A stretch of DNA of 64,000 bases from Pseudomonadota bacterium (GTDB taxonomy: Bacteria > Pseudomonadota > Alphaproteobacteria > Reyranellales > Reyranellaceae), in the NCBI GenBank assembly GCA_018240695.1, contig JAFEFH010000001.1, forward strand, positions 1 to 64,000. Reading direction: 5' to 3'. Positions within the stretch are counted from its first letter, which is position 1, and each line of letters starts with the position of its first letter. This document shows, piece by piece, positions 17,776 through 63,778 of this stretch. The translations under genes and the position numbers were made by a program. Below the pieces are notes generated by a model. The model had not been told where the DNA came from. It was given only the letters and a program-made list of their open reading frames with translations, and made no database searches.

Positions 17776-17780
17776 AAGGT

Positions 17781-17796: not shown

Positions 17797-18257
17797 CAAG
17801 AGCAGGCCTGCGCCTGCCGTGAGATCGCGTAGGCGGCGCGACGATCCGATTGAAGCTGGTGCGGACGGAGGGAATTGAACCCTCACGAGAGTGACCTCCC
17901 TACGGATTTTCATACCACTTCGGCTTTCGCCGCCGCTCCTCGCGTTCGTGGTGGACTAACCGATACTGTGATGAGTGACGGCAAACGCAAAAAAATCCGT
18001 GGATAGACGCGTCCAGAGGCCGGACCGGCTCTATTTCGGCCGCCTGGGCGAGCGGCGTCACGAAGCCGCCCGGTCAGCTAGTTGGGGTGGTGCCTCTTCG
18101 CCATTCGGTGACGATCCTCGCGCAGCTATTTGATCCGAATGTAAGTTTGCCCTTCGAGAACGCGCTTTACCTGAGCCGAGTCAATGGCGCCGGCTTGCTG
18201 TCGTATCGCCTCGATGCCTGTATCGTCACACTGATCTAGGTGAAAGCGACGGTCTCA
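17797..18257. other. 461-bp non-coding stretch containing a tRNA-like remnant
   Basis: Besides the tRNA 3'-end-like segment at 17857-17912, I see no open gene here. A CGGC...GCCG hairpin and an ACCAC/GTGGT pairing lie just to the right of the remnant (17918-17955). The promoter of the helicase gene must be somewhere in the right half. This stretch separates the E1/E2 operon from the kinase-helicase pair and may be the seam of an older insertion. Confidence 0.5.
17857..17912 (-). tRNA. tRNA 3'-end-like remnant (class II type), possible old attachment site
   Basis: On the minus strand this reads as a T-arm (GAGGG-TTCAATT-CCCTC), a 7-base 3' acceptor strand CGTCCGC, discriminator A and CCA, preceded by a variable-arm-like segment and a TGAAAATCC anticodon-loop-like end. 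No 5' half (expected to start GCGGACG) is found within about 150 bp, so it is not an intact tRNA. The break again falls at the anticodon loop, as at 9302. The A discriminator and long variable arm would suit a Leu tRNA, but the anticodon cannot be assigned. Confidence 0.5.
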
Positions 18258-23623: not shown

Positions 23624-23810
23624 CCGGTGATCAGGTAGCGCGCCGCTTCTGTCGCCAGGTGCGCCTCGCGGGCTGGAAATGTCCCGGAGAACATGCTGCT
23701 CGACCCGCGAGGTGACCTTGATGCACGCGATGCAGCTCGACTCCGGTAGGATCAGCTTGGGCCTTCCATTACGCGCTGTAGCCCCACACGATCAAAGTCT
23801 GGAGGAGCTT

Positions 23811-24629
23811 ATGAAACCATCCGTAACTTATAAATATCACTCGCTAGACGACTACCTGCTCTCAAAGCGGCTCGACGTAGATGGCATGCTTGATGATGGA
23901 TGGGGAGCACACTTTCCCGTTAAGGCACGAGAGATTGACGCTGCTGTGCTATTCGCCGACATCTGCTCGTTTTCCGCGCGCACCAAAGATTTGTCTCCAA
24001 TCGAAACTCTTATCTTCCTGAATAATTTTCTCGCTTGGATAAGTGCAGAAGCGTTACGAGATGGAACGCTCATCGTCGATAAATATATCGGAGATGAAAT
24101 CATGCTTGTCTTCTCAAAGGAATTTGGCTCGCTAGATCCCTTTGTCGACGCCTTGCGGGTGGGGCGAGCCATGCTCGATCGCGATGCGCTTGGGTTTGCG
24201 CCAAGGATCGGAATAGCCATGGGCCGCGTTGCCGTCGGCTACGTCGGTACACCTCTTCGCTACAATTGCACCGTGCTGGGGGCGCCCGTTGTCGTCGCAA
24301 AGCGCTGTTGCGGCATTGGAGAGGAGCCATTCTCGTCGATTACATTCCCTGCCGAGTTGTGGGCCCAGCACCAACTCGAGGAGGTCTTCCCAAGGCGAAA
24401 GCGTCAGGCACGCGACGGAACAATTTTCGAGGAGCCATTGAACTGGCAACTCGGCGATTCGCGTGTGACAGCCTTGAAGAATATTGGTGAACGCCAAGTA
24501 AGGACACTCTTCACCAACCTCGTTCATTTTTCACAATACGCGCCCGAAGACCGGGCTCGGGATGGGCTGACTCATCTAAAAAGAGAGGGCAGCTATCACT
24601 ACGCGCGTTATTCTTATGAAGCCGAATAA
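23811..24629 (+). CDS. Class III nucleotide cyclase
   Basis: The protein is 272 aa with one catalytic domain. Metal Asp50 lies in FADICSF and D95 in KYIGDE, and the base-contacting Lys of the VxKxxGD motif is retained (K91). In the segment that normally reads YTVxGxxVNxAxR, here about TVLGAPVVVAKR, the transition-state Asn is replaced by Val and only the Arg remains. I chose ATG 23811 because GGAGGAG sits just upstream; the frame opens earlier at 23679 without support. Free-standing class III cyclases make cCMP or cUMP in Pycsar defence or cAMP in ordinary signalling. No PycTM or PycTIR effector is adjacent. No regulatory domain is visible. Confidence 0.8.
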   Translation: MKPSVTYKYHSLDDYLLSKRLDVDGMLDDGWGAHFPVKAREIDAAVLFADICSFSARTKDLSPIETLIFLNNFLAWISAEALRDGTLIVDKYIGDEIMLVFSKEFGSLDPFVDALRVGRAMLDRDALGFAPRIGIAMGRVAVGYVGTPLRYNCTVLGAPVVVAKRCCGIGEEPFSSITFPAELWAQHQLEEVFPRRKRQARDGTIFEEPLNWQLGDSRVTALKNIGERQVRTLFTNLVHFSQYAPEDRARDGLTHLKREGSYHYARYSYEAE

Positions 24630-24725
24630 AGCGAACATGGATAAGCCTGCGACGCATCTGCGGTCATCACGAACATGTGGCGCACGATTTCATTTGTATG
24701 GATTTTCAGCTTCTCGCTGCGTGGA

Positions 24726-28796: not shown

Positions 28797-29018
28797 TTAG
28801 TTAAATGTACCACAATGGTCACATGATGTCTCTATGGAGGTTTTTCAAGCTCTGTCTCTGGCGGCACCAATTCTTCTGAAAAATATCAGTATTTATTGAT
28901 TTTTACAGAATGTACGCCTATTGCCACAACATCTTAAACGCCTATTGCCACAACATAATAAACGCCTACACCCACAGCATAAAATACGCCTACTTCAGAG
29001 AAGCTTGATCAACCCCAA
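28797..29018. promoter_or_regulatory. AT-rich divergent promoter region with 24-bp repeats
   Basis: This 222-bp gap lies between the STAND protein gene (minus) and the Fic gene (plus). It is much more AT-rich than the surrounding DNA, for example 28878-28913. It contains four tandem 24-bp units on the Fic side. Both promoters must lie here. The HTH domain of the STAND protein is a natural candidate to bind the repeats. Confidence 0.6.
28914..28998 (+). repeat. Four tandem 24-bp repeats (iteron- or operator-like)
   Basis: Units begin at 28914, 28938, 28962 and 28986, an exact 24-bp period. Each starts ACGCCTA. The first two share ACGCCTATTGCCACAACAT, the third has ACACCCACAGCAT, and the fourth is only the first part. 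The 24-bp spacing is close to two helical turns, so bound proteins would sit on nearly the same face of the DNA. They end about 20 bp before the Fic start codon. Confidence 0.85.
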
Positions 29019-30824
29019 ATGCCAACTCCTAATGAGAAGCTCGCCGAAGCGCTGACCGCCCTCCAAGAGCTGCAAAAGGAGGGGCGGCGCGTATTCCGCA
29101 CAAGCGAGCTCAGCCGTATGCACCGCGAACGGCTGATGAGAAATGCCTTTGTCCAAGAGGTCATCAAAGGATGGCTGATCTCTTCAAGTCCGAACGCGCG
29201 CGATGGCGACAGTACGCCTTGGTATGCATCCTTCTGGGAATTTTGCGCTCGCTACTGTGACGACCGTTTTGGAGACCAATGGCACCTCTCGCCGGAGCAA
29301 TCGTTGCTGCTGCATGCCGAGAACACTGTCATCCCGCCCCAAGTCATCGTCTATAGCCCCAAGGGCGCGCGCAATAACACCAAGCTTCTCTTCGGTACGT
29401 CGATTTACGACGTTGTCCAACGAATGCCCCCGCCGGCTGATCTCACCATCCGCGACGGACTGCGCCTGTTCACACCGGAAGCGGCCCTGGTGAAGGTTCC
29501 GGAGACATTCTTCCAGCAGCATCCGATTGAAGCCCAGGTTGTCCTGTCCTCGATCAGGGACGCGTCCGACATCTTGCGGCGGGTGCTCGACGGGGGGAAT
29601 TCCTATGTCGCAGGCAGGCTCGCAGGAGCTCTCCGACGCATGGGCCGTGCCGAGATCGCAGATGAGATCGCGACGACGATGAAGGCGGCTGAATATCCCA
29701 TTCGAGAATCCGATCCCTTCAATGCGCAACAAGTGTTTGGCACCTATCGCGGCACAACGGCCCCCATCGTGTCGCGGATCGAAGCGCTTTGGAAAGCAGC
29801 GCGCGATCCGGTGATCGCGGCCTTTCCGAAAGCGCCCGGTCTCCCGAGGAACAAAGACGAGTACATGCGCTTTGTGGAGGAAATCTACAAAAGCGACGCG
29901 TATCACTCGCTCTCCATCGAAGGCTATAGCGTGACGCCCGAATTGATCGAGCGTGTCCGCTCCGGCAATTGGGACCCCGACATCCACGACAGCGATCGAA
30001 AAAACCGCGATGCGTTGGCGGCTCGAGGGTATTGGCAGGCCTTCGAGGCGGTAAAGGCAAACGTCGCCCAAATTGTGAACGGCACGGAACCAGGCGGGTT
30101 GGTTCGCGTCAGCCATCGCCGCTGGTATCGAGAATTATTTACGCCCTGTGTCACCGCCGGTCTGATTTCTGCGAGTGCGCTCGCGGGCTACCGAAACGAC
30201 GCCGTCTATCTCAGAACCTCTCGCTATGTGCCGCCGAGATGGGAAGCCGTACGCGATGCTATGCCGGCGCTGTTCGATCTCATTGAAGGCGAGAAGGAGG
30301 CAAGTGTTCGCGCAGTGCTGGGTCACTGGCTCATCGGCTACATCCACCCTTACCCGGACGGCAATGGCCGCATGGCCCGCTTTCTCATGAATGCAATGCT
30401 CGCCTCCGGCGGATATCCTTGGACGGTTGTCCGGGTCGAAGATCGAGTTGCCTATCTGCAAGCGCTCGATCGGGCGAGCATCGACGCGGATATCGGACCT
30501 TTTGCGACGTTTCTCGCTGAGCGTGTGCAATGGTCGATGGAGGCCAGAGCACAGGGTGAGATAGCGGACCGGCGTTTCGAGGTCGGCGATCTCGTGAGGC
30601 TCCGGCCGAATTCCCGAGTTGGATTCGGCTATCAACCCAATATTCGCGCCGATGAAATTGGCGAAGTCTATGCGGTCGAGCCCCATCCGCCGCAGACGGG
30701 GCCAACCTATCGGATTTGGGTCAGATTTCCGGGCGAACGAGTCGTCCAGGGTACGTTCGCCTTTGAATATGTGCTCGTGAAGGCAGCAGAAAAACCTCGG
30801 GACGATTCTTCTTTGCAGCCTTAG
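29019..30824 (+). CDS. Fic-domain protein (AMPylase family) with N- and C-terminal extensions
   Basis: This 601-aa protein carries the full Fic motif HPYPDGNGRMAR at about residue 442 (consensus HPFxxGNGRxxR), which supports an active nucleotidyltransferase. An inhibitory helix motif of the S/TxxxE(G/N) type, SLSIEG, occurs about 145 residues earlier in the same chain, so the enzyme is probably self-inhibited. The first 250 residues include helical and winged-helix-like sequence, and the last 90 form a small beta-rich domain. Fic enzymes usually AMPylate protein targets and act as toxins or signalling enzymes. It is divergent from the STAND gene over the 24-bp repeats. Confidence 0.9.
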   Translation: MPTPNEKLAEALTALQELQKEGRRVFRTSELSRMHRERLMRNAFVQEVIKGWLISSSPNARDGDSTPWYASFWEFCARYCDDRFGDQWHLSPEQSLLLHAENTVIPPQVIVYSPKGARNNTKLLFGTSIYDVVQRMPPPADLTIRDGLRLFTPEAALVKVPETFFQQHPIEAQVVLSSIRDASDILRRVLDGGNSYVAGRLAGALRRMGRAEIADEIATTMKAAEYPIRESDPFNAQQVFGTYRGTTAPIVSRIEALWKAARDPVIAAFPKAPGLPRNKDEYMRFVEEIYKSDAYHSLSIEGYSVTPELIERVRSGNWDPDIHDSDRKNRDALAARGYWQAFEAVKANVAQIVNGTEPGGLVRVSHRRWYRELFTPCVTAGLISASALAGYRNDAVYLRTSRYVPPRWEAVRDAMPALFDLIEGEKEASVRAVLGHWLIGYIHPYPDGNGRMARFLMNAMLASGGYPWTVVRVEDRVAYLQALDRASIDADIGPFATFLAERVQWSMEARAQGEIADRRFEVGDLVRLRPNSRVGFGYQPNIRADEIGEVYAVEPHPPQTGPTYRIWVRFPGERVVQGTFAFEYVLVKAAEKPRDDSSLQP

Positions 30825-41627: not shown

Positions 41628-42485
41628 ATGGAAACCACGACGCGACAATGCTGTGCAGGTATGTTGTTGGCCTTGGGACTCATGGCAGGCGCAGCCGAGG
41701 GCGTTGCCGACGAGGTGCCGCGGGTTGGACCGGCCGACCCTGCGGTGAGAACTGCCGCCTACAATGAATGGCAGGTCTACGAACTGCGCGGCGCCTATCG
41801 CGCCGCCATGGCCGTGGAGTTTGGGGTTGGTGAGATCATCGAGAATGTCGGCATCGGCGATTCGGCTGCCTGGGACTTTTCGCACTATCAGAATTTGTTG
41901 TTCCTCAAACCACGCCAGAAAGCAGCGCCGACAAATGCGATCGTGCAGACCACGACCAAGGACGGACGGTTACGGCTGTACAATTTCAAACTATCGGCAA
42001 CCGACTCTCCTGCCGCTGAAATGGTCAAAGTGAAGTTTGTCTATCCAGGCGACGTGGCCGATGACCGTAGGGTGGCGGAGCGCAAACGCCTTGAGAATGA
42101 AGCGGCCGAAAGAGCTGCGGCGGAGAGCCAGAGCGCCATCTACAGCGGCCCGCGCAATTGGGCGTACACGGTCACCGGCGCGACGCCCTTCGTGCCAAAC
42201 GAGACCTGGGACAATGGCCGCGCGACTGCGTTCCGGTTTCCCGGCCAAACCGATCTGCCGGCGATCTACGCCGTGGATAGCGACGGCAGCGAGCGGCTGG
42301 CGCCGTCGCACACGCAGGACAATCTCGTGGTCGTTCACGAAGTAGCCGCCAAGTGGCGCGTGCGGAGCGGTGCCGAGGTGATCTGCATCTACAACGAAGA
42401 CTTCCGGCCCGGATGGGGACCAGAACGGGGCAACGGTAGCGGCAGCGAGAGCTGGTGGCGCAAGATCCTCGGATCGAACGAGTAG
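41628..42485 (+). CDS. virB9: VirB9-like outer-membrane complex protein
   Basis: This 285-aa protein has an N-terminal signal peptide (LLALGLMAGAAEG). The typical VirB9 pattern follows: WEVY-like YNEWQVYEL, VGEIIENVGIGDSAAWDF, KPRQKAAPTNAIVQT, and a C-terminal CagX domain with RVRSGAEVICIYN. VirB9 forms the outer-membrane core complex with VirB7 and VirB10. The start follows AGGGGAAT, 17 bp after virB8. Confidence 0.93.
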   Translation: METTTRQCCAGMLLALGLMAGAAEGVADEVPRVGPADPAVRTAAYNEWQVYELRGAYRAAMAVEFGVGEIIENVGIGDSAAWDFSHYQNLLFLKPRQKAAPTNAIVQTTTKDGRLRLYNFKLSATDSPAAEMVKVKFVYPGDVADDRRVAERKRLENEAAERAAAESQSAIYSGPRNWAYTVTGATPFVPNETWDNGRATAFRFPGQTDLPAIYAVDSDGSERLAPSHTQDNLVVVHEVAAKWRVRSGAEVICIYNEDFRPGWGPERGNGSGSESWWRKILGSNE

Positions 42486-45413: not shown

Positions 45414-45686
45414 TTATCGGTGCGCCTCGGCGGCCAAGTCGTCCGCTACTCGATCCTCGCGACGTAGTTGGCACCGCCTTTCGGCTCCCACGCTGACACC
45501 GGGTGCTTTCCCACGTTCCTTGAAGACCGCTTCCGGCTGGTCATTGCGTTGCTTTGACCCTTCATTAGCGGCCTCCCCGACGACGCAAATTGTTACTGTT
45601 CCCATGTGAACCTCCACGTTGAACGTTGCCGTTACTGTGGGGGCCGGTTGCAGTGCCAACCACGCCGCGATTGCTGCAAGCAGCAT
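45414..45686 (-). CDS. Possible small secreted protein
   Basis: This 90-aa frame has a signal-like N-terminus (MLLAAIAAWLALQ) and a beta-like segment (TVTATFNVEVHMGTVTICVV) before a charged tail. No clear ribosome-binding site precedes the ATG and I know no family. It is kept because the hydrophobic start and beta segment look less random than other frames here. Confidence 0.3.
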   Translation of the reverse strand: MLLAAIAAWLALQPAPTVTATFNVEVHMGTVTICVVGEAANEGSKQRNDQPEAVFKERGKAPGVSVGAERRCQLRREDRVADDLAAEAHR

Positions 45687-46074
45687 TCGGCTTGGCTTCT
45701 TGCCCGAGCTGAATATCTCACCTGCATATAGGCTTGCTTGCGCGCTTGCTCAAGGGTTCGGGGGCCTTATGAATGACCGGTGGATGCGCAGCAGCCCCAG
45801 TCTTTTTCGGCTCTCGTACTGCCCGTAATCTCGTGGCATCCGGCCGATACGCCACCAAGCCTGACTTATCGCGAGCCATCAAGCGGGCCCTCGGTGGCCG
45901 ACTTCAAATTATGCGACGGATGCCGCAATTTGGCCCTGGCTGGAGTTGGAGAAATTCTTGGATGTAGTGTGAATGCAGAGCTCTTCGCAGCAGTTCGACA
46001 TGCGTGCGTAGCTTTTTGCCACGCCAATTTACGCGGAGTTGCACAACTGGTCGGGATTGGCCAATGATCCGCTT

Positions 46075-46568: not shown

Positions 46569-49500
46569 TCAGCGGTCGAGGCTTCGGCCCGTCCGAGATG
46601 TTCCTCGAACCCGGCGGTCGAGATCAAGTTGAAGATCAAGATCGTGGACAGTGGTCAGCAATTCGCGGGCGGCGGCCGTCGCCTTGGCCCATGGATCGGC
46701 CTCCCGCTCACGGCCGCGTACGGGATGGCCGGTTCGCCGTTGATGTGTTGCCGGCGGCGTTGCAAAGATCATGTCCTTGATGGCTTGGTCGAGCTCGCCA
46801 TTGGTCGCGCGACCTTCATTGTAGCGGCCGATCAGGGCGAAGACCGCCTTGGCGGCGCGACCGGCTTCGCTTGTTGCCGAAAGATGTGGCGCTGCTATTT
46901 GCAGCGCCTCGACGGTGGCCACCATCCGGGTGCCGATCGACACCTGGCCGGTCGTGCCGAAGCTCGCATAGCCGCGACTGGCAAAGGCCCTGTGCTGGGG
47001 CGTGTCGGGAAGCGCCGCGGCTTGGCGTTCACGCGCGCGTGGTCGGCGATCCTGCAGAAGTCCTTTCGCACGTGCGCCGATGTCCCGGTAATAGGGAGCG
47101 CCGGCCGGCATCGCCCGGAACTGATCGCTAGTGGAGAAGCGCTCTGCCGCTGCGTCGTACTCCTGTGGTGTGCGGGGCGGGCTGTGCCGGCCGATCAGGG
47201 TCGATCGGACAAACGGCGGAGGGACAAGGAGCTGCCGCTCGCGGTGCGGCCTTGGCGGCGGAGACGTGTCGACCACGGCGAGCGACTGCTGCTGCAGGCC
47301 GGCGATCTCGGTCCGCATGTCGCGGGCAAAATCCGCTGGAGCGGGACGGCGGCGCGCGAGCACGTCGCAGAGGGTCCGGTAGGCTCGATGTCGGTCTCGT
47401 GTGCGAATAAGCGTGTCGCTGGCCAGCGCCCATTCCGCTCGATTGAACGTTGGTGACGGCCGCCCCTCGTACCGCAGCAGGGTCGGCATGGCGGCCGACG
47501 CCTGGCGCTCATGGACGATCGCTGCGGCTTCATGGCGTACCAGGGCGGCCACGCGCAGCGTGTCCGCACGCCAGCGCTGATCGTATTCTGCCGTCACCTG
47601 ACGCTCGCGGCGCTCGCGGGCTGTCCCCAGGCGGGTCAGTATCTCTGGGGGTGTCGAGCCGCCGCGCGCCTCCGCGAGCTGGCGATCGAGATCCAACAGG
47701 GTCGCGTCGGCGGCGAGGACGCCGGCCAGCGGCGGCGGGCGATAGCGGGCCGCCAGGGCTGCGATCTCGGTGGAGCTTCGGCCAAAGGTTTCCCGGCGGG
47801 CCTCATAGTCAGCGGTCGCATGCAAGATCCGCAGCTGCTCGAGTTCGGGGCTGCGGCGTCGCTCGGCTTCGGCCGCGACCCAGGCCCGCTCCGCCGGCGC
47901 CAGGCCAGGGCCTTCATAGTCGAGAGTCATCTCCTTGACGTTGTGGCGGCGTGCCAGGGAGCGGATGAGTCCGTCTACGTCCTTGTGAGACGCCTTGTCG
48001 GCGATCAGCAGGCAATCCTGGCGATGACGCGACATCGCCACGTACAGCAGATTTCTGTCCATGCCAGCGCTTTCGAGGGCGTAGACCCGGTCGAGCGTGG
48101 CGCCCTGAGTCTTGTGGACGGTGAGCGCGTAGCCATGGTCGACGTCGGGATATTCCCCGAGGGACACCTGCACCATGCCGCCGTCGTCGATCTTGACGGT
48201 GAGCGCACCGTGATCGGCGCGCACGACGTTGCCGAGCTGGCCATTGCGGACCTCCAGGAGGCCGCGGCCGTCGGCCGAGCGCAGACGCGCGTTCCGCAGT
48301 AGAGTGATCCGGTCGCCGGACAGGAATTCGCGAGCTCCAGCCCGAGTCTGATAGACGCCGCCTTGTCCTCCTACCAGCACGCCGATACGCTTCAGCCCGG
48401 ACCGGATGCCGTCATTCAGCGCCGTCACGTCGGAGTTGGTGTGTGCGAGCGCTGCCTGTGTCCCTGGCCGGGTGTAACTCTCGAGGAACAGCTCGATGGC
48501 CCGCGCCACGGGATCGGCTTCCAGCCGAATCCGACTCTCGGCCGAATACGCCTGCAGGGCGTCGGCCGTTCGCGATTGGGCGAAAGCCACGGTGGCCGCT
48601 CGCTGCCATTCCAGGGATTGCCGACGAACCTCGAGGAGCCTGACCGGCTCGACCCGTTCGATCAGCGCACGGAACGGCGCGCCCGCACCGATCGCCGGCA
48701 GCTGTTCGGGATCTCCGACCAGCACGATCTTGGCGCCTGCCAGGCGGACCTCGTGGACCAGCCGGGCCATCGTCTTGCTGTCGATCATGCCGGCTTCGTC
48801 GATGACCAGCACGTCCCTCGAGATGAGGCGTGCGGCGCCCTTATCCCAGGACAGGATCAGCGAGGCGATCGTGGTGCTGCGAATGCCCGAGGACTGGCCG
48901 AGGCCTTGGGCCGCTTTGCCAGCGGTGGCGGCCCCGAATACCCTAAAGCCCTCGCGCTCCCAGCCCAGCCTTGCCGCCTTGAGCAGGGTGCTCTTGCCGG
49001 CGCCGGCCACTCCGACGATTGCCGACAACGACTCTGGCCCCGTCACATGGTCCAAGGCACTGCGCTGCGACGGGCTGAGCTCTATGCCGTCCCGCTCGGC
49101 CAGGGTGGCCACCGCGATCGCCAGCGTCTGGGCCGTGAGGCCACGGTTCGTCTGCGGTCCGAGGGTGCGCGTACTCGCCAACGCGAGCGCATCGGCCAGC
49201 AGCTTCCATTCCAGATCGGCCGTGGATTTGAGCGTGTACTTTGCTGGCAGGTCGACGGTGCGGCCCTCCGGCAATGTCAGCGTTTGGCGCTCCCGGCGGG
49301 ACGGCAACGCCAGAAGCTCTGGGCACGCCATGACGGCGGCCAGACAGATCTGGAATTGCGCGTGGTCGGCGACGTAGCGATCGAGCGTCTGGGCGATCTC
49401 CTGGCGAGTGAAAACCGACTGGCTGTCGCCCAGCAGGCGCAGCAATTGCTCGGGGTGGGCGCGGATCAACTCGGCATTGACCGCCTGTGTTTGGGGACTG

Positions 49501-50231
49501 ATCGACAGCATGTCGGGGACGATAAAGCGCCGTTGCAGACCGTTCCCGGCCGGGCCTTTCTTCGGTTGCGGTCCAATGTCGATGCCACGGTCGCGGTAAC
49601 TGCGCGGGTCGAGGCGCGCTTCCTGGCCGGCCCGCTCGAGCGCCCGGTTGGCCAGTTGTGCCCACTCCTCGCGGAGATTGCGGATTTCTGCCGCCCTCCG
49701 GAGCAGCCCCAGCGCTTTGCGCTTGTCCTCGTTGTGCTCGAGGGCGCTCCGCTCACCCATGCCTTGGGCGCTAATTCGACGCGTCGTCATCAGCAAATGG
49801 GCATGGTGGTTGCGCTGGTCGCCGGCTTTGCTGGGAGGATGGATCGCGTAGTCCACGGCAACGTCATAGCGGTCGGCCAGCATTTGCGCGTATTGGGTCG
49901 TGAGCGCCCGCCGCTGGACGCGGTCCAGTTCGGCGGGGAGTGCCAAGAGGATCTCCGTTGCGACCCGCGAATCCTTGCGACGCTCGGCCCGCTCGGCGGC
50001 GTTCCAGAGCTGACCGCGGTCGAGGGCCCACGTCGCCGCCACGCCTTGCGGCAGGAGAATGCCGGTCTCTGCCGGATCGATCTCGCCCGAACGGACGCGC
50101 CGGGAGTAGTCATGACGCTTGCCTGTCGCCTCGTTGGTGAGTGCCGTGCCGCTGCGATAGGCGGCCGCTGCAATCGACGAGCGCCCTTTGCCGCGGCTGA
50201 TCGCCTGCAACGCAAAATGGCAGACGGCCAT
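46569..50231 (-). CDS. traA: Ti-type TraA relaxase with MobA/MobL and RecD-like helicase domains
   Basis: This is a 1220-aa protein. The N-terminal 250 residues are a MobA/MobL relaxase: CHFALQAISRGKGRSSIAAAAYRSG, then the metal-binding His cluster NHHAHLL. The middle is a RecD/TrwC-like helicase with Walker A GVAGAGKS, VIDEAGMID, GDPEQLPAIG, then LTVHKTQGATLDRVY and LYVAMSRHR. It nicks oriT and unwinds the strand to be transferred. The C-terminal 150 residues form a separate domain also found in the small protein at 59415. The ATG at 50231 starts directly before the relaxase motif. A HTH gene lies 2 bp upstream. Confidence 0.94.
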   Translation of the reverse strand: MAVCHFALQAISRGKGRSSIAAAAYRSGTALTNEATGKRHDYSRRVRSGEIDPAETGILLPQGVAATWALDRGQLWNAAERAERRKDSRVATEILLALPAELDRVQRRALTTQYAQMLADRYDVAVDYAIHPPSKAGDQRNHHAHLLMTTRRISAQGMGERSALEHNEDKRKALGLLRRAAEIRNLREEWAQLANRALERAGQEARLDPRSYRDRGIDIGPQPKKGPAGNGLQRRFIVPDMLSISPQTQAVNAELIRAHPEQLLRLLGDSQSVFTRQEIAQTLDRYVADHAQFQICLAAVMACPELLALPSRRERQTLTLPEGRTVDLPAKYTLKSTADLEWKLLADALALASTRTLGPQTNRGLTAQTLAIAVATLAERDGIELSPSQRSALDHVTGPESLSAIVGVAGAGKSTLLKAARLGWEREGFRVFGAATAGKAAQGLGQSSGIRSTTIASLILSWDKGAARLISRDVLVIDEAGMIDSKTMARLVHEVRLAGAKIVLVGDPEQLPAIGAGAPFRALIERVEPVRLLEVRRQSLEWQRAATVAFAQSRTADALQAYSAESRIRLEADPVARAIELFLESYTRPGTQAALAHTNSDVTALNDGIRSGLKRIGVLVGGQGGVYQTRAGAREFLSGDRITLLRNARLRSADGRGLLEVRNGQLGNVVRADHGALTVKIDDGGMVQVSLGEYPDVDHGYALTVHKTQGATLDRVYALESAGMDRNLLYVAMSRHRQDCLLIADKASHKDVDGLIRSLARRHNVKEMTLDYEGPGLAPAERAWVAAEAERRRSPELEQLRILHATADYEARRETFGRSSTEIAALAARYRPPPLAGVLAADATLLDLDRQLAEARGGSTPPEILTRLGTARERRERQVTAEYDQRWRADTLRVAALVRHEAAAIVHERQASAAMPTLLRYEGRPSPTFNRAEWALASDTLIRTRDRHRAYRTLCDVLARRRPAPADFARDMRTEIAGLQQQSLAVVDTSPPPRPHRERQLLVPPPFVRSTLIGRHSPPRTPQEYDAAAERFSTSDQFRAMPAGAPYYRDIGARAKGLLQDRRPRARERQAAALPDTPQHRAFASRGYASFGTTGQVSIGTRMVATVEALQIAAPHLSATSEAGRAAKAVFALIGRYNEGRATNGELDQAIKDMIFATPPATHQRRTGHPVRGREREADPWAKATAAARELLTTVHDLDLQLDLDRRVRGTSRTGRSLDR

Positions 50232-50233
50232 GG

Positions 50234-50512
50234 TCAGCGCCGGCCCTGTCCGCCCTGGCGGGCGATATTGCCGAGATGCCGTTTCTGGCGCCGCCGCTTT
50301 TCGTCGGCATCGGTGAGGTATGGGCGGGTGCGTTCGTACGCCTCGATGTGCTGGCGCTCCCACAGCCGGGTCCGCCGCTCAGCGCCTCGGCTGATGCTGG
50401 CGGTGGGCGCAGGAAAGAGAGGATCGCGCCCGATGAGGCGGCGGATGCCCTCTCTGGTGTAAATCCAGCGACGGCTCAGGTCGGGAATCGACAACAGCTC
50501 GGAGGGTGCCAT
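50234..50512 (-). CDS. Small HTH protein upstream of traA
   Basis: The protein is 92 aa. A helix-turn-helix-like N-terminus (LLSIPDLSRRWIYTREGIRRLIGRD) is followed by GAERRTRLWERQHIEAYER and a strongly basic tail. It is separated from the traA start by 2 bp, so it is almost certainly in the same operon. Proteins of this kind near relaxase genes may bind oriT or repress the transfer operon. The palindrome in the upstream gap could be its site. Confidence 0.75.
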   Translation of the reverse strand: MAPSELLSIPDLSRRWIYTREGIRRLIGRDPLFPAPTASISRGAERRTRLWERQHIEAYERTRPYLTDADEKRRRQKRHLGNIARQGGQGRR

Positions 50513-50781
50513 TCACGTTACGCGGGCGTTGCCACTTGGCAACGCGGTACCGCGCCCTTCGGGTTTCTTGATGTGATTTCCCTCCCCAACGATTTGTCGT
50601 CAAGACGAGGCCGGAGTTAAACGGGGATCGGGGATTCGCTATTTCTATCCGATTGTACGCTCGACATGAGAAAGGCATGGCGCGTCGCACATCACGACAT
50701 TATTTTTAATCGACTAGGCATCAGAACGGTCCAGTCCCTCCGGGACGTGTGCATCGCATCGACGATTGGGGAACGCTCGCC
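50513..50781. promoter_or_regulatory. Divergent control region of the transfer genes, with palindromes
   Basis: This 269-bp gap separates the HTH-traA operon (minus) from the virB11-virD4 side (plus). At 50526-50545 it has a perfect inverted repeat GCGTTGCCA-CT-TGGCAACGC, and at 50544-50553 the palindrome GCGGTACCGC, partly overlapping. It must contain both promoters. The palindrome lies just upstream of the HTH gene, so it could be an operator or part of an oriT. Confidence 0.5.
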
Positions 50782-55589: not shown

Positions 55590-56426
55590 TCAGTCGGCCG
55601 CCGCCTGCGCGCGCGAAGCGGCTGTGGAGAGGGCGTTCGGCTGAGACTTGAGATGGGCGAGCCAAGACGCGACGTAGGGCGCATGGTCGGTGCGTGGCGC
55701 ATTGGTGAGGCCGAGCCGCGCGCAACAGAAGGCAGCGCCGAGTTCGGCGACGAGCTCTTCAGCGGCCCGGACGCTCAGGTCGGCGCCGTAGCGCACTATG
55801 CTGTCTCGATCAAGGCGGTGCTTGGCACCCGTTGCGTGCGTAAGCTCGTGAAGCACGGTGGCATAGTACGCCGTCGTGGCAGAGCCCGCGTCGGTCGCGC
55901 GAAACCGCCATGGCTCGGGCAGGACGACGGTGTCGGTAGAGGGCCGGTAAAAGGCGATCTGGCCTGCGTGCACGATCTCGACGCCGCTTGCGGCGATGAT
56001 CGTGTCGGCAGCGCCATGCGCCTCGACGCTATTGGGCGTGCGTTTGGCGTCGGGCGGCGCGAAGCCGTCAACCTGGTCGGCGTTGAACACGGTGAAGCCG
56101 AGCGGCACACGGCGCAGCTCGCCGGCACGGGCAGGGTCCGGGAGCTCCTTCCATTTCACGCAGGGCGTGCCGCGCTCGCCCTTGCGCACCTGGGCGCCGA
56201 TTGAGTCCCACTGCCGGTAAGTCGCCCAACTGCTCGTGCCATAGTGGCGTTTCTGGGTGGCGGTCCAGAGGGCCAGAATGTTGAGTCCACGGTAAGCGTC
56301 GCCGGTCGTCGCATTGGTCGGAAGAGCGAACGGCGCGGCGGTGGCGTGCCACGGCATCTGGTAGGTGTCGGCACCGCGCTCGATGTCGGCGACGATGGAC
56401 GCGAGGACGGTCTGGTAGACGGACAT
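55590..56426 (-). CDS. ardC: ArdC-family antirestriction protein
   Basis: This 278-aa protein has an ArdC N-terminal domain (WHATAAPFALPTNATTGDAYRGLNIL, the ssDNA-binding domain) and a C-terminal zincin-type metalloprotease motif HELTHATG. ArdC proteins enter or act early in the recipient and shield the transferred DNA from restriction. The start has AAAGGAA upstream. It is the first of a group of typical ICE/plasmid genes (ArdC, DUF3768, ParB-like). Confidence 0.92.
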   Translation of the reverse strand: MSVYQTVLASIVADIERGADTYQMPWHATAAPFALPTNATTGDAYRGLNILALWTATQKRHYGTSSWATYRQWDSIGAQVRKGERGTPCVKWKELPDPARAGELRRVPLGFTVFNADQVDGFAPPDAKRTPNSVEAHGAADTIIAASGVEIVHAGQIAFYRPSTDTVVLPEPWRFRATDAGSATTAYYATVLHELTHATGAKHRLDRDSIVRYGADLSVRAAEELVAELGAAFCCARLGLTNAPRTDHAPYVASWLAHLKSQPNALSTAASRAQAAAD

Positions 56427-56959: not shown

Positions 56960-58489
56960 CTAGGCGCGGCCCTTGATTGGCACGAACGTGGCGGGTTCCT
57001 TGAGGTCAAGGATCGCCTTGACCAGTTGACCCTTCTTGAGGTCCTGGCTTGGCACCTTGAGGTGCTTGGCCAGATCCTGCAGCTGATCGAGGCGGTAGCG
57101 CGTCAGCAGGCTCTCGTCGTAGGTGAACCAGGCGATGTCGGAGCCCTTGAGGATTCTCATGGCCTCGGCATCGGGTTGGTCCAGCCCGACCATGGCGTGC
57201 AACGCGGCCGCCCGAACGATCGGCATCACCTCGTCCCAGGACATTTTGTCGAAGACGGCCCGCGAGGGGAACGAAAGCCCCTTGGAGCAGTCGTGACTGA
57301 GCTTGCTGGCCAGCATGGCGTTGACCCCGGTGTAATTCGGCATCGTGCCCTTGAGACCGGCCCAGGCCGGACCTTCGTCGACCAGGAGCGGTTCGACGAG
57401 GGTCTTGAGCGCAAGCCAGGTGTCGCCGGCGGCGATCGCGGCGGCCAAGCCAGCAGTGAGGCGGGCGCCGATGATTTCCCGTTGGCTACGGCTGTGGTCG
57501 TAGCAGGTGAGAGGCTTCACATCCTCGGCCTTGGCCTTGCCGGTCTTGGCGGCTTTCTCGGCAGCCTTGAGGTCTCGGCGCGTAGTATAGCCACGCAATT
57601 CCTCGACGCGGCCGCTGTGGCTTGAGTATTCAACGAAGGCGTTGAAGCGGCCGCGATCGGCCTTCAGGATGCGGCCCTCGACAGCGATATTGTCCTGGCG
57701 AAACTTGTAGTCGGGATTGACCACGAGCTGGACGTCGGACCAGCCTTCGGCCTTGAGGGCTTCGACCTTGGCCGTCAGCGCTGCCATCTGCAGCTCGTCG
57801 AACTTCTCGCGATCGGTGAGCCACACTTCGGTGCTGAACAGGTCGCGTCGGATCGCCTCGGCCGGGTAAAGCTCGAGCGGAAACAAGGCGTGTCCAGCGG
57901 GGAGATCGCCCCGCGTGAGCTGATTGCGAATCTCACGCGCCTCGAGCTGCCAGTCGTGGCGGGCCTTCTTGAGATAGGCCTCCTGGGTTTTCACGTCCAC
58001 GATGGTGAGTGCTTCCGCACCGCCCAGGGTCAGGTGGTTGTGCCTCAGGAGTTTCTTGGCGAGATCGCAGAGGCCGTCCAGCTTGACTCGCTGGCTGGCC
58101 CAGCGTTCGGACTGACCGAAGCGCACGGCAATGTCGGCCGGCTTCTCGCCGGCGGCGATGCGGTGGGCGATCACCGCCGCTTCGTCGAGCGGATGCATCT
58201 GGGCGCGGGCCTGGTTGGCGGCGGTGCCCACTTCCTCGGGGGTGCGATCGCCTTCGTAGAGCTCGGCTTTGAGCGCTGCCAGTCCCGCCTTACGCGCGAG
58301 CATGTAGCGGCGGCCGCCCTCGATGATGTCGAAAAAGTCGCCGCCCTCGGCGGCCGGTTTCACGAGGATGCTGGTGAGCTGACCGTGCGCCTTGAGCGAG
58401 GCGATGAGTCGGGCATCGTCCGCGGGGGCGGCCTTGGTCTTGCGCGGGTTGGTATCGGTCAGCCTGAGGTTTGCGAGAGGAATAAGCAT
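56960..58489 (-). CDS. ParB-like DNA-binding protein of the ICE/plasmid type
   Basis: This 509-aa protein has the ParB/Spo0J N-terminal domain: IPLANLRLTDTNPRK (box I), HGQLTSILVK, then FFDIIEGGRRYMLARK (box II), followed by a HTH region (PADIAVRFGQSERWASQRVKL). The long C-terminal half is Lys/Glu-rich. No partner ParA is adjacent, so it may act in gene control or plasmid-like maintenance of the element. I chose ATG 58489 because GGAG sits just upstream; a second ATG at 58519 lies ten codons earlier without a ribosome-binding site. Confidence 0.88.
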   Translation of the reverse strand: MLIPLANLRLTDTNPRKTKAAPADDARLIASLKAHGQLTSILVKPAAEGGDFFDIIEGGRRYMLARKAGLAALKAELYEGDRTPEEVGTAANQARAQMHPLDEAAVIAHRIAAGEKPADIAVRFGQSERWASQRVKLDGLCDLAKKLLRHNHLTLGGAEALTIVDVKTQEAYLKKARHDWQLEAREIRNQLTRGDLPAGHALFPLELYPAEAIRRDLFSTEVWLTDREKFDELQMAALTAKVEALKAEGWSDVQLVVNPDYKFRQDNIAVEGRILKADRGRFNAFVEYSSHSGRVEELRGYTTRRDLKAAEKAAKTGKAKAEDVKPLTCYDHSRSQREIIGARLTAGLAAAIAAGDTWLALKTLVEPLLVDEGPAWAGLKGTMPNYTGVNAMLASKLSHDCSKGLSFPSRAVFDKMSWDEVMPIVRAAALHAMVGLDQPDAEAMRILKGSDIAWFTYDESLLTRYRLDQLQDLAKHLKVPSQDLKKGQLVKAILDLKEPATFVPIKGRA

Positions 58490-58719
58490 TTGAAACTCCG
58501 TTGGTTGAGGTTTGGACATGAAAAACCGACCGCGTTAGAGGGTCGCGGCCGGGCCGTAGGCGTGCCGTCTGCGGATGAGACCGGGCAGTGAGTGCTGCCC
58601 GGCGTTATGACGATTGAGAACGGCGATAGGTGTTGAAGCGGGCAGGACCAGTCGGTCAGCCGCCGGCGGGTGCAGTCCCCCGTGGGGGAGTCACCAGCAA
58701 CAAAGCTGGTGTCAGGAAG

Positions 58720-58751
58720 TGCCGATGATCCGGACATCACGCTGCGCGACG
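58720..58751 (+). repeat. Left arm of 32-bp inverted repeat
   Basis: It starts TGCCGATGATCCGGACATCA and is matched, with one mismatch, by the reverse complement of 59121-59152. The arms are separated by 369 bp. Confidence 0.85.
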
Positions 58752-59120
58752 TTGCTTCGCTGCGATGCTGCGGGCCGTTGATGCCTTCCCTGCTTGAGCC
58801 TATTCGGCCGCCGGGTATAGCCGCCCTGTGCGCGTGGTGCTGGTCCCCGTTGTCGGCAGGGAGTGGGGTATTCTATGGCTCCTGCCGTTGCGTAGACCCA
58901 GCCACAGGACGAGCCCGGAGCAAGAGACAAACTGTTGCACCGGATGGTGCGACAGGTTTGTTTCTTGCAGGCGGCCGAAGGCCGACGGTCCGCGCGCAGG
59001 CCTGTGGCGTCATGGGTCGAAGCAGGCAGGAGCCGTCCCACTCCCCAACGGGGAAGAGGACACATGGCGCGGTGACTGGCGGTACGGCGAGGGGGAGGCA
59101 GCGGCCCGCGCGGGCGACAG

Positions 59121-59152
59121 CGTCTCGCAGCGTGATGTCCGGATCATCGGCA
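59121..59152 (-). repeat. Right arm of 32-bp inverted repeat
   Basis: This is the reverse complement of 58720-58751 at 31 of 32 positions. The flanks do not show an obvious target duplication, which argues against a recent transposon end. Confidence 0.85.
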
Positions 59153-59358
59153 GGGCTGGCAAGCCCTCATCAGGCGCTTGGCGTTACCAAGCGCCGCGGA
59201 AGGGATGGAAACCCGAAGGGCGGAGACCCGTCTGCGGGGCTCCGTTCACGACAGCCCGGTCCGGCGACAGCGCCGGGCCGCCCCTCTACTCCTCAAAACA
59301 GCATCAGAGATCATCCAACCGCCGACGCGATTGGTCCTGCGCTTCCCGGCCAAACAAG

Positions 59359-59390
59359 AACGCCGCGCCTCAGTGATGAGGCGCGGCGTT
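59359..59390 (-). terminator. Strong hairpin after the TraA-C-like gene
   Basis: Arms of 14 bp (AACGCCGCGCCTCA and complement) enclose loop GTGA with perfect pairing, 24 bp downstream of the minus-strand stop at 59415. On that strand CTTGTTTGG follows, a weak T-rich tail. Confidence 0.65.
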
Positions 59391-59414
59391 GTCGAGGGGG
59401 CGGGTCTGGCGCTC

Positions 59415-60107
59415 TCAGCGGGCGGGGCCGTCCTTGCCGGGAGCCGTTGGCGCCTTATCGGGATGGTGTTCGCGGTCGGCGGTGCGCACGACGTCGACCA
59501 GCTTCTGCGCCTGCTTGATATTGGCCGCCCATAGGTCCGCCGCCTTCTGCCGTTCCGGCGTGATCTCGCCGGTCTGCCGGTTCGCCGCCGTCGGCGGGTT
59601 GGCGTAGATCATGTCCTTCATTGCCTTGTCGAGGTCGCCATTATTGGCGCGGCCCTGTTCGTATAGCCCGACGACGGCGAAGGCGTGCTTGGCCGTGCGC
59701 CCGGGCTCGCTGCTTTCCCAGAGACCGGGCGCGGCGGCTTGGATCGTGCCGACGATGGCGAGCAACTCTGTGCCGACCTTGGCCTGTTCCTTTCCGAAAT
59801 CGCCATAACCGCGGCCGGCGAAGGCTCGCTCCTGGGGCGTGTCCGGCAGGGTTGCGCGCGCCCGCTCGGCGGCGCGCGCCTCGCGGGTTTGGTCGAAGGC
59901 GGTCTGGCGCCGATCGCGCTCCTGCTGTCGGCCCAGGAGGCGATCCTTCTCGAGGGCGACGCGCGCCTGAAAATGAGGACTCGCCATATACCGCCTCTGG
60001 GCAGCCTCCTGCTGTTCGGGCGTTCGCTCCGACCGGGGCCGGGGCTCGAAGCGACGCGGCGCGCCACCAAAGGTGAGTCCGTCGCCGGATTTGGTCGTGC
60101 TTTCCAT
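59415..60107 (-). CDS. Small protein sharing the TraA C-terminal domain
   Basis: This 230-aa protein starts at 60107, with GGAGA just upstream, and has a charged, Arg/Gln-rich helical N-terminal half. From about residue 88 it is clearly homologous to the TraA C-terminus: LPDTPQERAFAGRGYGDFG against LPDTPQHRAFASRGYASFG, then AMKDMIYANPPTA against AIKDMIFATPPAT. The shared block suggests a common partner, such as the coupling protein or another transfer factor. It may compete with, or dock beside, the relaxase. It is followed by the structured non-coding stretch. Confidence 0.8.
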   Translation of the reverse strand: MESTTKSGDGLTFGGAPRRFEPRPRSERTPEQQEAAQRRYMASPHFQARVALEKDRLLGRQQERDRRQTAFDQTREARAAERARATLPDTPQERAFAGRGYGDFGKEQAKVGTELLAIVGTIQAAAPGLWESSEPGRTAKHAFAVVGLYEQGRANNGDLDKAMKDMIYANPPTAANRQTGEITPERQKAADLWAANIKQAQKLVDVVRTADREHHPDKAPTAPGKDGPAR

Positions 60108-60193
60108 GACAATCTCCATTGCTGGTTGGTTAAAAGATTTGTCTTGGTTCGCCGTCTGGCGCGGCGCTGACAGGCGTTTGCCAAGCAAGACGC

Positions 60194-61177
60194 CTAACGG
60201 GCTGGTCCCTCCGGCTGCTTGACTACAGCCGGCGCTGGCGGCGCGGCAGAATGGCCGAGTTGCTGGGCAAGGGTTGCGATGTTGCGGGCATCGAGGACGA
60301 CGCAACGCCAGGCGCTATCCGCCGGATGAGCGGGATCGTGGCTTCTGCGGGACGGGGCGGCGTCGAGAGCGGCCGAAGCGAAGGCGAGGTCGCCCGGGCT
60401 CGCCTGGTCTTTGGTGTAAGCCCGAACGGTGCGCAGGTACGCGCTGAGGGCTGCTTGCTGGGTCTCGCTCAGTCCCTTGTGGGGCAGGCGGTCGATGTCG
60501 CTCAGGGTAAGCCGGATTTGGTCGCGGATTTGGCCGCGTTCGGCAAAGGGCAGGCTGTGGTAGGCCTCCTTATCGGCCGGCGGCGTGAACACGAGCTCGG
60601 TGCGCGGCCGCGGCGCAGTCTGCTCTTGTTGGCCCTTGGCGGCGCGATGATTTTTGAACGCTTTCGACTTCGTTGCAAAGGTGAGTGTCGTGTACTCGGC
60701 CTTGGCTAACGCATGCTGCGTCGAGATCTCAGCCGCCTTGAGGATGGCCGACAGTTGGGACAGGTAGCATTCATGGCGCGCCTCTCCGACGCGCTGCCAA
60801 AACGTTTTCTCTAGATCCGCTGGGGTTCGGGCGGGCAAAAGCGACGTGCTGAGCTTGTCGAGTGACTTCTCGACGTGGCCCAGGGTGATGCTGCTGCCCT
60901 CGGCCAGGAAGCCGGTGAGCATCTCTTTGGCATCTGCCAGTGGCTTGGCGGTGTACTTATCCGCCCAGAACGTTTGGTTCAGGTCTTCGCGGATTTGGCT
61001 CCATCTGCGGTGAGCCTCGGGCCCGAGCTCCTCGAGACATCGGTCCTGGGCGAGCAGAACCGACAGGGCGGTTGGAAAGGCGCGAGGCGAGCGGGCGGGG
61101 CTGGGCTCCGGCGCGGCGACCTGGCCGGCAGGCGGGGCGTCGGGGCGGGACACTGAGCCGGCGTTGTCGATGCTCAA
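60194..61177 (-). CDS. Hypothetical 327-aa helical protein
   Basis: The protein is mostly alpha-helical, with an N-terminal Pro/Ala-rich segment (about 10-32) and a charged central part. No signal peptide, membrane helix or known motif is visible. It lies 86 bp upstream of the TraA-C-like gene on the same strand, so the two are probably co-transcribed. A Shine-Dalgarno GGAGG lies upstream of the ATG at 61177. Role unknown. Confidence 0.65.
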   Translation of the reverse strand: MSIDNAGSVSRPDAPPAGQVAAPEPSPARSPRAFPTALSVLLAQDRCLEELGPEAHRRWSQIREDLNQTFWADKYTAKPLADAKEMLTGFLAEGSSITLGHVEKSLDKLSTSLLPARTPADLEKTFWQRVGEARHECYLSQLSAILKAAEISTQHALAKAEYTTLTFATKSKAFKNHRAAKGQQEQTAPRPRTELVFTPPADKEAYHSLPFAERGQIRDQIRLTLSDIDRLPHKGLSETQQAALSAYLRTVRAYTKDQASPGDLAFASAALDAAPSRRSHDPAHPADSAWRCVVLDARNIATLAQQLGHSAAPPAPAVVKQPEGPAR

Positions 61178-61342
61178 GACGACCTCCTATCCGGGTCTGC
61201 ACATGCAGGACCGGCTTAAGCCTTCCCTCCGTCCGGTCCACGAGTCAATACGTATTTCCCTCCGTTGCGTGTGGTCTAGTACATGACTAGACTGCGTCGC
61301 GTCATCTGTCGGTTTCGGCTTCTTGTTGAGAGGAGATCCGTC

Positions 61343-62293
61343 ATGGCGCTACAACTCTGGAAAATCACGGGCGCCGCGCTGGCGCTCTCGGCCGCAGGCG
61401 TTTTCTCGGCCGCGCGATCGCAACAAGTGGTGCCAACGGCTGCGCTGCAGACCGTCGCTCCATCGGCAGTGCCGGCAAACGCTACGACGGTGGGCACGAA
61501 TGCGGATGGATCCAAGATCGTGCAGACGACCGACGCTTCCATCCTGTCCGCGAACGCCTTTCCATACTCGTACGGCAATCTCCAGCTGCCGAAGTACTCG
61601 GCGCCCGCGCTGCAGTTCAATGTCAGCGGTGCGGGCACGATCGAATACTCTGTCGCGCCGTCCGGCACGGCGGGTTCCGGCTCGCATGTCGCGGGGGTGG
61701 ACGACGGGACGGCTGGACTACTTGCCCTGCAAGATAATAACGGCGGCGGCTGCGCCATCGCTCTCTGCGTCGCGGCGGGGGCCAATGCGCCTATCCAAGC
61801 GGGAGCCTGCCAAACGATCCTCAATGACATGGCGCGGCTATTGCGCTTGGGTCAGTCGGTGCCCTCGTGCGCCGGCTCGACGGTGACCTATCGGCCGGTC
61901 ACGTGTGCCGCGCCGTGGACCCTGGTGAGCCTCGGGGGTTGGGAGAGCTTTGCGTGCCAGGCGATCATTCCGCCCTCGGGGCCATCGGTTGCCGAGCAAT
62001 GTGCCGTGGCGTACGCCACGGCGGAAAATCAGCTCACCAGCATTGAGACGGGCGTTTATGCCGATGCGGCCGGGAACTGGTACGCGTGGGACTTCGCCGG
62101 CAACACGTTAGAATATTCCGCGAGCACCACCGCCTGTCCCAATGTTGCGGGCGGCGCGGACTTTGCCGGGAATTCGGGTGCCGGGGGAACGGGCGCCGAC
62201 GGCAACAGCTCCGGCAATGGCAACAGTGGCAATGCGGGGGACAGCGGAGCAGGTGGGGCGAGCGGCGATGGTGGCGGAGATGGCGGCGGCTAG
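61343..62293 (+). CDS. Secreted protein with Gly/Asn/Ser-rich C-terminal tail
   Basis: The protein is 316 aa. A signal peptide spans about residues 1-27 (WKITGAALALSAAGVFSAARS). The mature part has beta-rich sequence with seven Cys residues, likely forming disulphides. The final 45 residues are almost only Gly, Asn, Ser, Asp and Ala, ending GGGDGGG. I chose ATG 61343 because GAGGAGA lies upstream; the frame is open to 61283. It may be a surface or cell-wall-associated protein of the element, for example for mating-pair contact. No family recognised. Confidence 0.7.
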   Translation: MALQLWKITGAALALSAAGVFSAARSQQVVPTAALQTVAPSAVPANATTVGTNADGSKIVQTTDASILSANAFPYSYGNLQLPKYSAPALQFNVSGAGTIEYSVAPSGTAGSGSHVAGVDDGTAGLLALQDNNGGGCAIALCVAAGANAPIQAGACQTILNDMARLLRLGQSVPSCAGSTVTYRPVTCAAPWTLVSLGGWESFACQAIIPPSGPSVAEQCAVAYATAENQLTSIETGVYADAAGNWYAWDFAGNTLEYSASTTACPNVAGGADFAGNSGAGGTGADGNSSGNGNSGNAGDSGAGGASGDGGGDGGG

Positions 62294-62821: not shown

Positions 62822-63778
62822 TCAGCGCCGGCCGCACCTAGTGGACTCCGTTGGTCGCGGGACGGCGGCAGGGTCCGCTGATAAAGCCGGGCGATTAGCA
62901 CGAAGGTGAGCGAGGAACGGCGAGATCGTGGGATTGGAAGGTACCTTTTTCCAGCAAGCAGCGAAGCTCATCCAACTAGCGCCAGATCGGTCGTGCATTT
63001 CCCGATGCACAACGTCGCGCTGACGAGCCTGCAGAGCCCCTTCGCACTGTATCGTCAGTCCCAGACCTGCTGAAACGAGACTTAAGAGAGCCTCTGCACT
63101 GGCCGGGTGGTATTGAATGCGGGCGCTGCCGCCGAAGGCGGCCAGCTTCGTCGCCAGCAATTCCTGCAGCTCGGGCCCCAGGCCCTGACGACTCATAAAG
63201 ACAATCTCTCCGTCGAGATCTGTCCAGTTGGCGAACCGTCGATCAGACAGGGGATGCGACAGGGGTAGGACGAGAAGGATTCGTTCAGACCACAGCGATA
63301 ATATCTCACAACTCTCTTCATGTGTGTATCCGGCGACGATTGCCAAATCGAGGGTGCCGTCCAGCACCCGCCTCAGAAGGACGCGCTTGGATGCTTCAAC
63401 CAAGCGTACGCTCACTTCCGGCCGCTCCTTAGCGAAGCCGACCAACGCTGGTTGCATTGGTACCGCTGCCGTGAATGTCAAAAGCCCCAGTGACAGGTGA
63501 CCCGCTGCCCCTATGCCTCGAGCCTTGGCGCTTTCCAAAAGCTCGTCGAAGTCTTCGAGCAAATGCGCAGCCGTCTCCACGAAATGGACACCCGCCGGAG
63601 TCGGACGAACCCCGCCACTTGAACGCAAGAAGAGAGTGAGGCCGAGCGCATGTTCCAATTGCCAGATCGTTCGACTGAGGGTCGATTGGCGAACGCGCAG
63701 CGAATGAGCGGCACGGCGAAAGCTCCCGTGATGTGCGGCTTCCACTGCGAACCGGAGATGACGTAATCCAACAGTCAT
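62822..63778 (-). CDS. LysR-type transcriptional regulator
   Basis: This 318-aa protein has an N-terminal winged HTH (LRHLRFAVEAAHHGSFRRAAHSL, QSTLSRTIWQLEHALG) and a C-terminal substrate-binding domain. This is the LysR pattern with a typical length. It would bind a small-molecule inducer and activate nearby genes. LysR regulators of this type are often found in alphaproteobacterial ICEs. I chose ATG 63778 (MTVGLRHL); an ATG at 63793 precedes it by five codons. The C-terminal 25 residues are unusually basic and Pro-rich. Confidence 0.9.
   Translation of the reverse strand: MTVGLRHLRFAVEAAHHGSFRRAAHSLRVRQSTLSRTIWQLEHALGLTLFLRSSGGVRPTPAGVHFVETAAHLLEDFDELLESAKARGIGAAGHLSLGLLTFTAAVPMQPALVGFAKERPEVSVRLVEASKRVLLRRVLDGTLDLAIVAGYTHEESCEILSLWSERILLVLPLSHPLSDRRFANWTDLDGEIVFMSRQGLGPELQELLATKLAAFGGSARIQYHPASAEALLSLVSAGLGLTIQCEGALQARQRDVVHREMHDRSGASWMSFAACWKKVPSNPTISPFLAHLRANRPALSADPAAVPRPTESTRCGRR

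Follow-up and report, generated by a model that had tools for sequence, protein, structure and literature searches.

A probable single-stranded DNA promoter of the Frpo kind in the leading region of an alphaproteobacterial ICE

Frpo promoters determine the set of plasmid genes expressed during the first minutes in a new cell, ahead of the action of its defences, and have so far been studied almost only in enterobacterial plasmids. The F plasmid has two, Frpo2 in front of ssbF and Frpo1 in front of ygeA/ygeB; they are 92% identical and about 5 kb apart, and the stem-loops that they form as single-stranded DNA (ssDNA) serve as promoters in the recipient (Couturier et al., PMC9849209). Imperfect repeats with an ssDNA promoter upstream of ardA and psiAB have also been described for the ssi of ColIb-P9 (IncI1) and the Frpo repeats R1-R3 of pO26-CRL125 (PMC3817090). 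Anti-defence genes in T-strand orientation are over-represented in leading regions, which also carry Frpo promoters, and further candidates, termed Frpo' and Frpo*, have been found by BLAST to known Frpo or by their -35/-10/UP consensus (Samuel et al. 2024, PMC11541004).

Here we describe a large folded element found in a 64,000-nucleotide stretch of alphaproteobacterial DNA, the whole of which is referred to as the window. We think it probable, at roughly 0.85, that this element is a divergent ssDNA promoter of the Frpo/ssi type, situated in the leading region of an alphaproteobacterial ICE and serving early expression in recipients.

A nested fold between two leftward genes

The gap that contains the element is flanked by two - strand genes, a ParB_N gene at 56960-58519 and the one at 59415-60305. 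On the + strand the predicted DNA fold consists mainly of a long imperfect stem-loop of 433 nt (58720-59152), built from outer arms and inner helices. The first-pass annotation had described a 32-bp inverted repeat enclosing two long-range helices and an inner hairpin, with more hairpins on both sides. The repeat is present and slightly longer, with arms of 35 nt (58720-58754 and 59118-59152) that are 94% complementary and that pair in the DNA fold as 27 bp (58720-58746 with 59126-59152) plus 7 bp. Both long-range helices (58770-58791 with 59091-59109, and 58844-58886 with 59025-59054) are also found in this fold in their nested order, together with a further predicted inner helix (58895-58908 with 59001-59018) and, innermost, a tip hairpin of the form GCAAGAGACAAACTGTTGCACC-GGAT-GGTGCGACAGGTTTGTTTCTTGC (58920-58968), which is the least GC-rich part of the stem.

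Three of the flanking hairpins are likewise predicted on the + strand: CACCAGC..GCTGGTG on the 5' side (58687-58711, the hairpin also being given as 58692-58711), GGCGCTTGG..CCAAGCGCC (59173-59195), which separates the long stem from the conserved core described below, and a terminal hairpin 3' of that core (59258-59279). An outer closing helix pairs 58687-58691 with 59288-59292. The remaining hairpin, at 59359-59390, does not belong with these, as the sequence scan assigns it to a separate intrinsic terminator of gene 59415-60305 on the - strand, outside the element. This terminator is strong and sits just upstream of the element, where it would shield the promoter from transcription arriving from upstream while the DNA is duplex.

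Compared with dinucleotide shuffles, the segment 58640-59300 has a fold z of -13.7 as DNA (+ strand). The earlier opinion that no protein is credible in the gap also holds, as a Pfam search of its ORFs returned no matches, and a 1-nt indel disrupts every reading frame in the 96%-identical copy carried by a relative of the same genus (G028).

Long, near-perfect arms could also be an inverted repeat left behind by insertion of a transposon or MITE, an ancestry already raised as a doubt in the first-pass annotation. There is no transposase between the arms, however, nor a second copy of them in the contig or in related genomes; the nested helices go on within the arms, and the core and the layout recur in conjugative elements. 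Transposon or MITE ends were rejected for want of both repeated copies and a transposase, and we regard the chance of such an origin as close to negligible.

The conserved core and its homologues

At the 3' end of the element is a conserved core of 65 nt (59196-59260, + strand), homologous to Frpo1 and Frpo2 of F and composed of a CCC-GAA-GGG helix and a CGGAGaCCC..GGGgCTCCG helix, then GTTCACGACAGCCCGG. When the gap is compared with PLSDB by blastn 1,391 plasmids are matched, and the matches listed all cover approximately 59195-59263 with 81-85% identity. A 151-bp core query retrieves 3,932 PLSDB records, mostly of IncF type and also from Burkholderia, Pseudomonas and Sphingomonas. Against the F plasmid the identity is 82% to Frpo2 (E 1e-10) and 81% to Frpo1 (E 1e-9), the matches lying at 58110-58173, upstream of ssb (58643; ssbF), and at 63500-63561, in front of genes that occupy 64032-65259 (ygeA/ygeB). 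Their placement relative to ssbF and ygeA/ygeB, and the 5.4 kb between them, agree with the published description, and the two matches are Frpo2 and Frpo1 or the stretch that directly follows each on its 3' side in the transferred strand; the core may sit just 3' of the segment as originally defined.

The core helices covary strongly. In a first alignment of 16 sequences, found by blastn only, both-sided changes occur in five of 12 pairs and one-sided changes in none; nearly all the compensatory changes exchange one Watson-Crick pair for another, and one-sided G-U intermediates are absent. An alignment of 55 distinct sequences, which was fitted to the covariance model and leans towards it, has 97.8% of its cells paired, against 76.9% in shuffles, and 124 double-change cells, against 43; only 2.6% of cells are G.T, and sliding the partner by a single column lowers the score about seven-fold or more (collapse at 1-3 columns). 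Across eight enterobacterial Frpo elements and the whole 161-pair structure, double changes are seen in 16 pairs versus 6.5 in shuffles. The covariation covers the core and the enterobacterial Frpo stem; G028, the sole close relative of the window stem, carries its upper part only.

The covariance model built from the core (R1; 86 bits for its match at 59185-59264) was used to find the core in genomes. Among 65 genomes of the window's genus 11 have it, and at higher ranks it occurs in 23 of 276 genera for the class and in 27 of the 212 genera sampled from the phylum. That a covarying core extends over alpha-, beta- and gammaproteobacteria is possibly new, and the same may be said of its frequent position upstream of ArdC or ParB and of its frequent occurrence without a long hairpin. 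The 500 nt flanking the core have a mean fold z of -3.5 on the 5' side versus -1.3 on the 3' side (Mann-Whitney p 0.002), the 5' segment having outstanding stability in a few cases, among them the window, IncF and Klebsiella, and a z near 0 in P. aeruginosa, B. glumae and several others. The notion that a long hairpin accompanies every core is thus ruled out, and because so many core homologues have no unusually stable 5' hairpin, the core may have a role other than marking a hairpin promoter.

The converse arrangement is seen in G028, which lacks the core at this place but has 216 bp of the upper stem, the tip hairpin included, at 96% identity. Because the core occurs without the hairpin and the upper stem occurs without the core, the two look like separable parts. 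This copy of the upper hairpin (L014, 9662-10158 of contig C186 of G028) is 550 bp from oriT and has neither core nor outer arms. Immediately after it come a group I intron-like RNA (RF00028 at 39.7 bits, which is under the gathering score) and a tRNA 3' half, for which no 5' half was found. The copy was also considered as part of the neighbouring intron and this was rejected, as the intron match begins beyond the shared segment. Another relative in the genus (G011, contig C19) contains two core copies, at 41947-42027 and 45611-45691, 3.7 kb apart in the manner of Frpo1 and Frpo2 of F, one of them upstream of a DUF4942 gene.

These comparisons bear directly on the proposal of the first-pass annotation, namely a new large structured non-coding RNA of the GOLLD, ROOL or HEARO kind, made from one strand and acting as RNA. 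In its outline the proposal was right: the single-strand structure is large, nested and conserved, it belongs to a mobile element, and the suggested comparison of homologues did reveal compensatory double changes both in the core and in the enterobacterial Frpo relatives. The fold is very strong as RNA on either strand (58640-59300, z = -11.7 for - and -10.6 for +), the large nested fold and the mobile-element site are shared with GOLLD, ROOL and HEARO, and a + strand transcript could exploit the same strand asymmetry as ssDNA (see below). However, the suggested covariance-model search matched nothing in Rfam, with no hits at the gathering score over the 64 kb window and nothing credible at E <= 10, and the homology of the core is to Frpo, a documented ssDNA promoter. 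Moreover, the lack of one-sided G-U intermediates among the 16 sequences and the few G.T cells among the 55 count against an RNA, many homologues retain only the core of about 65 nt, and no promoter for a + strand RNA was found in 58450-59450. A new RNA of this class thus seems very unlikely.

A broader and more tentative suggestion, to which we give somewhat less than even odds, is that the core is a distinct, phylum-wide ssDNA control element, recognised by a conserved host factor (RNA polymerase, SSB or the primosome, for example) and marking the genes first expressed after conjugative entry in plasmids and ICEs of alpha-, beta- and gammaproteobacteria, with or without the long Frpo hairpin.

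Strand preference, transfer polarity and downstream genes

To see which strand folds, the folding energy of the core strand was set against that of its complement, and the difference was compared with shuffles. The core (transferred) strand is favoured in all 15 elements, the enterobacterial members being related to each other and KU987453 reaching only -0.3; the asymmetry z is -2.7 in the window, -3.4 in Frpo1 and -2.8 in Frpo2 of F. The window stem contains G.T pairs, and its 1x1 mismatches are mostly G.A/A.G with no A.C, although the folding program itself prefers G.T.

This comparison provides a simple way to separate an ssDNA structure from an mRNA leader, which is pertinent since the element might instead be a structured 5' leader of the ParB mRNA, riboswitch- or attenuator-like and acting as - strand RNA. 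The - strand RNA does fold well, and the element follows a plausible operon boundary and precedes the start of ParB, the core being 666 nt upstream of that start. Were the mRNA-sense strand the selected one, wobble pairs would be expected to favour it; since it is the complement of the mRNA that folds better in all 15 elements, the strand asymmetry argues against an mRNA leader; it is compatible with a + strand RNA. Likewise, G-U pairs in a - strand RNA would show as A.C among the mismatches, and the core is common to the leaders of unrelated genes (ssb, ArdC, ParB, DUF905 and antirestriction genes). We consider a leader of this type highly improbable.

The mobile element around the fold provides a second view of polarity. 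The integrase gene at 9380-10930 and the T4SS genes spanning 36 to 55 kb of the window suggest a probable ICE of about 9-62 kb. Inside it is a defence-like island (15663-30824) in which PADLOC reports a JAB protein (15663-16634), MkoA/MkoB (Mokosh-like, 18240-23623), a weak match to PycC (Pycsar cyclase, 23679-24629), PD-Lambda-4_A (24726-28796) and a Fic protein (29019-30824). A MOBQ relaxase-helicase of the Ti-type TraA-like kind is encoded at 46569-50363 on the - strand (MobA/MobL E 2e-52, AAA_30 E 2e-53, and tblastn to TraA). Beside it, a candidate oriT on the + strand at 50528-50558 consists of the inverted repeat GTTGCC-ACTT-GGCAAC, a spacer and a nic-like GCGCCCT; its layout and a comparison with G028 and Rhizobium led to it, searches with the RSF1010 nic consensus at up to 3 mismatches having given nothing above chance; blastn of the oriT region against plasmids gave no match. 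The layout is matched beside traA of R. leguminosarum pRL31b3 (AAGGGCGC-spacer-IR on the opposite strand), and the motif is identical letter for letter in the sister element, the one carried by G028. Nucleotide homology between the window and G028 (84% over 4 kb) ends at 50563, the nic-like end, as if these elements recombine at oriT.

In oriT sites of the RSF1010 type the nicked strand is the one that reads the inverted repeat and then GCGCCCT. By analogy with that layout the transferred strand would be the + strand, with the inferred nick placing the leading region to the right; the relaxase gene would enter last. The folded element is 8.1 kb from the candidate oriT in the leading direction. 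In F, with oriT near 66 kb and the leading region at lower coordinates, the core strand is the transferred strand and serves as template for the downstream genes. The agreement of the strand predicted from oriT with the Frpo orientation is an independent check of polarity.

The genes downstream are in keeping with early expression. ParB, ArdC and the genes at 59415-61830 are all on the - strand and are templated by the + strand. Directly downstream is the PRTRC ParB-like gene (Pfam ParB_N E 5e-5 and NCBIfam PRTRC_parB E 2e-16, both below the cut-offs, curated in the case of Pfam; tblastn to plasmid ParB proteins E 1e-20), whose protein found no relatives among the genome contigs, and next is an ArdC-like antirestriction gene (55590-56426, -; Pfam ArdcN E 3e-30, MPTase-PolyVal E 2e-38). 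The three leading-region genes at 59415-61830 (-), encoding 296, 327 and 184 aa, have no Pfam match and are candidates for undescribed establishment or anti-defence proteins. Among the homologues, the gene directly downstream on the core-templated strand is ArdC in seven and ParB_N in three; elsewhere P. aeruginosa p2 has ParB at this place, Klebsiella and Raoultella have antirestriction genes, and Enterobacteriaceae have ssb or DUF905. Where the sampled plasmid records are annotated, the core nearly always precedes ssb, ParB, DUF905 or an antirestriction gene that is read from the core strand as template; a Salmonella record, in which the core adjoins an IS, is an exception. The ArdC of R388 is reported to be required in the recipient and not in the donor (PMC7213743).

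Early expression of the ParB- and ArdC-like proteins is thus the simplest functional reading, by analogy with F. The TraA-like relaxase would nick oriT near 50,55x and the + strand would enter the recipient 5' end first; about 8 kb in, the segment 58687-59292 is predicted to fold into the long imperfect stem, hairpins and core. As inferred from F Frpo, host RNA polymerase would recognise the locally double-stranded stem as a promoter and copy the 5' arm of the stem, and transcription would run leftwards into the ParB-like and ArdC-like genes, so that antirestriction and establishment proteins could be made ahead of the complementary strand. Once the strand became duplex, the hairpin would be lost and expression would end, by analogy with F. 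A conventional sigma-70 promoter was not found in 58450-59450, nor a sigma-70 pair at 9/12 on either strand. No -35/-10 pair could be assigned in the window stem, and hand inspection of both arms of the F and window stems gave no convincing -10; the only suggestive feature is a TTGC at the base of the tip, which F also has.

The transcript may in addition act as a primer for synthesis of the complementary strand, a role that has been reported for Frpo. This raises the possibility that the element is in the first place a single-strand origin (sso/ssi), its fold priming that synthesis in the recipient and gene transcription being secondary, which would be compatible with the promoter reading. 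Frpo is reported as a site of primer RNA synthesis (Masai and Arai 1997, as cited in PMC11541004), and the sso of ICEBs1 appears, from its description in PMC4595007, to be a comparable case in an ICE. Placement in one orientation upstream of early genes nonetheless favours gene expression as the selected role, and an origin would not need more than one copy per element, whereas F and pO157 each have two or more. We consider priming as the principal function unlikely.

Comparison with known ssDNA promoters

Reading the element as an ssDNA promoter, we can compare it with those described previously. To the ssi of ColIb-P9 and repeats R1-R3 of pO26-CRL125 it is alike, by their description, in having an ssDNA promoter before leading-region genes, but the window holds one copy only, unlike the repeats of pO26-CRL125. 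With Frpo' and Frpo* it shares an intergenic Frpo-like structure, the anti-defence islands of conjugative elements and genes in T-strand orientation; unlike them, it was found through its covarying 3' core. The R1 model of this core makes early-expressed genes on entering ssDNA testable across Pseudomonadota by sequence search, rather than by degenerate -35/-10 boxes.

The likeness is closest to Frpo1 and Frpo2. When the transferred strand of F is folded it forms an imperfect stem of about 320 nt with an AT-rich tip, then two hairpins and then the core, and this order of long stem, hairpins and core is common to F and the window, as are the strand relation to the downstream genes and the leading-region site. 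The least GC-rich tip in the window is the counterpart of the AT-rich tip of F, and hairpin 59173-59195 is in the position of hairpin 496-527 of the F Frpo alignment. Early genes lie downstream in both, with ssb, a ParB-like gene and psiB in F and the ParB-like and ArdC genes in the window. In contrast, the window stem is longer (433 nt versus about 320), GC-rich and unrelated in sequence outside the core, and the settings differ, F being a MOBF plasmid of Enterobacteriaceae and the window element lying in an alphaproteobacterial ICE whose relaxase is of the MOBQ/TraA kind. The window element would therefore extend the Frpo kind of promoter to an alphaproteobacterial ICE that has a different relaxase.
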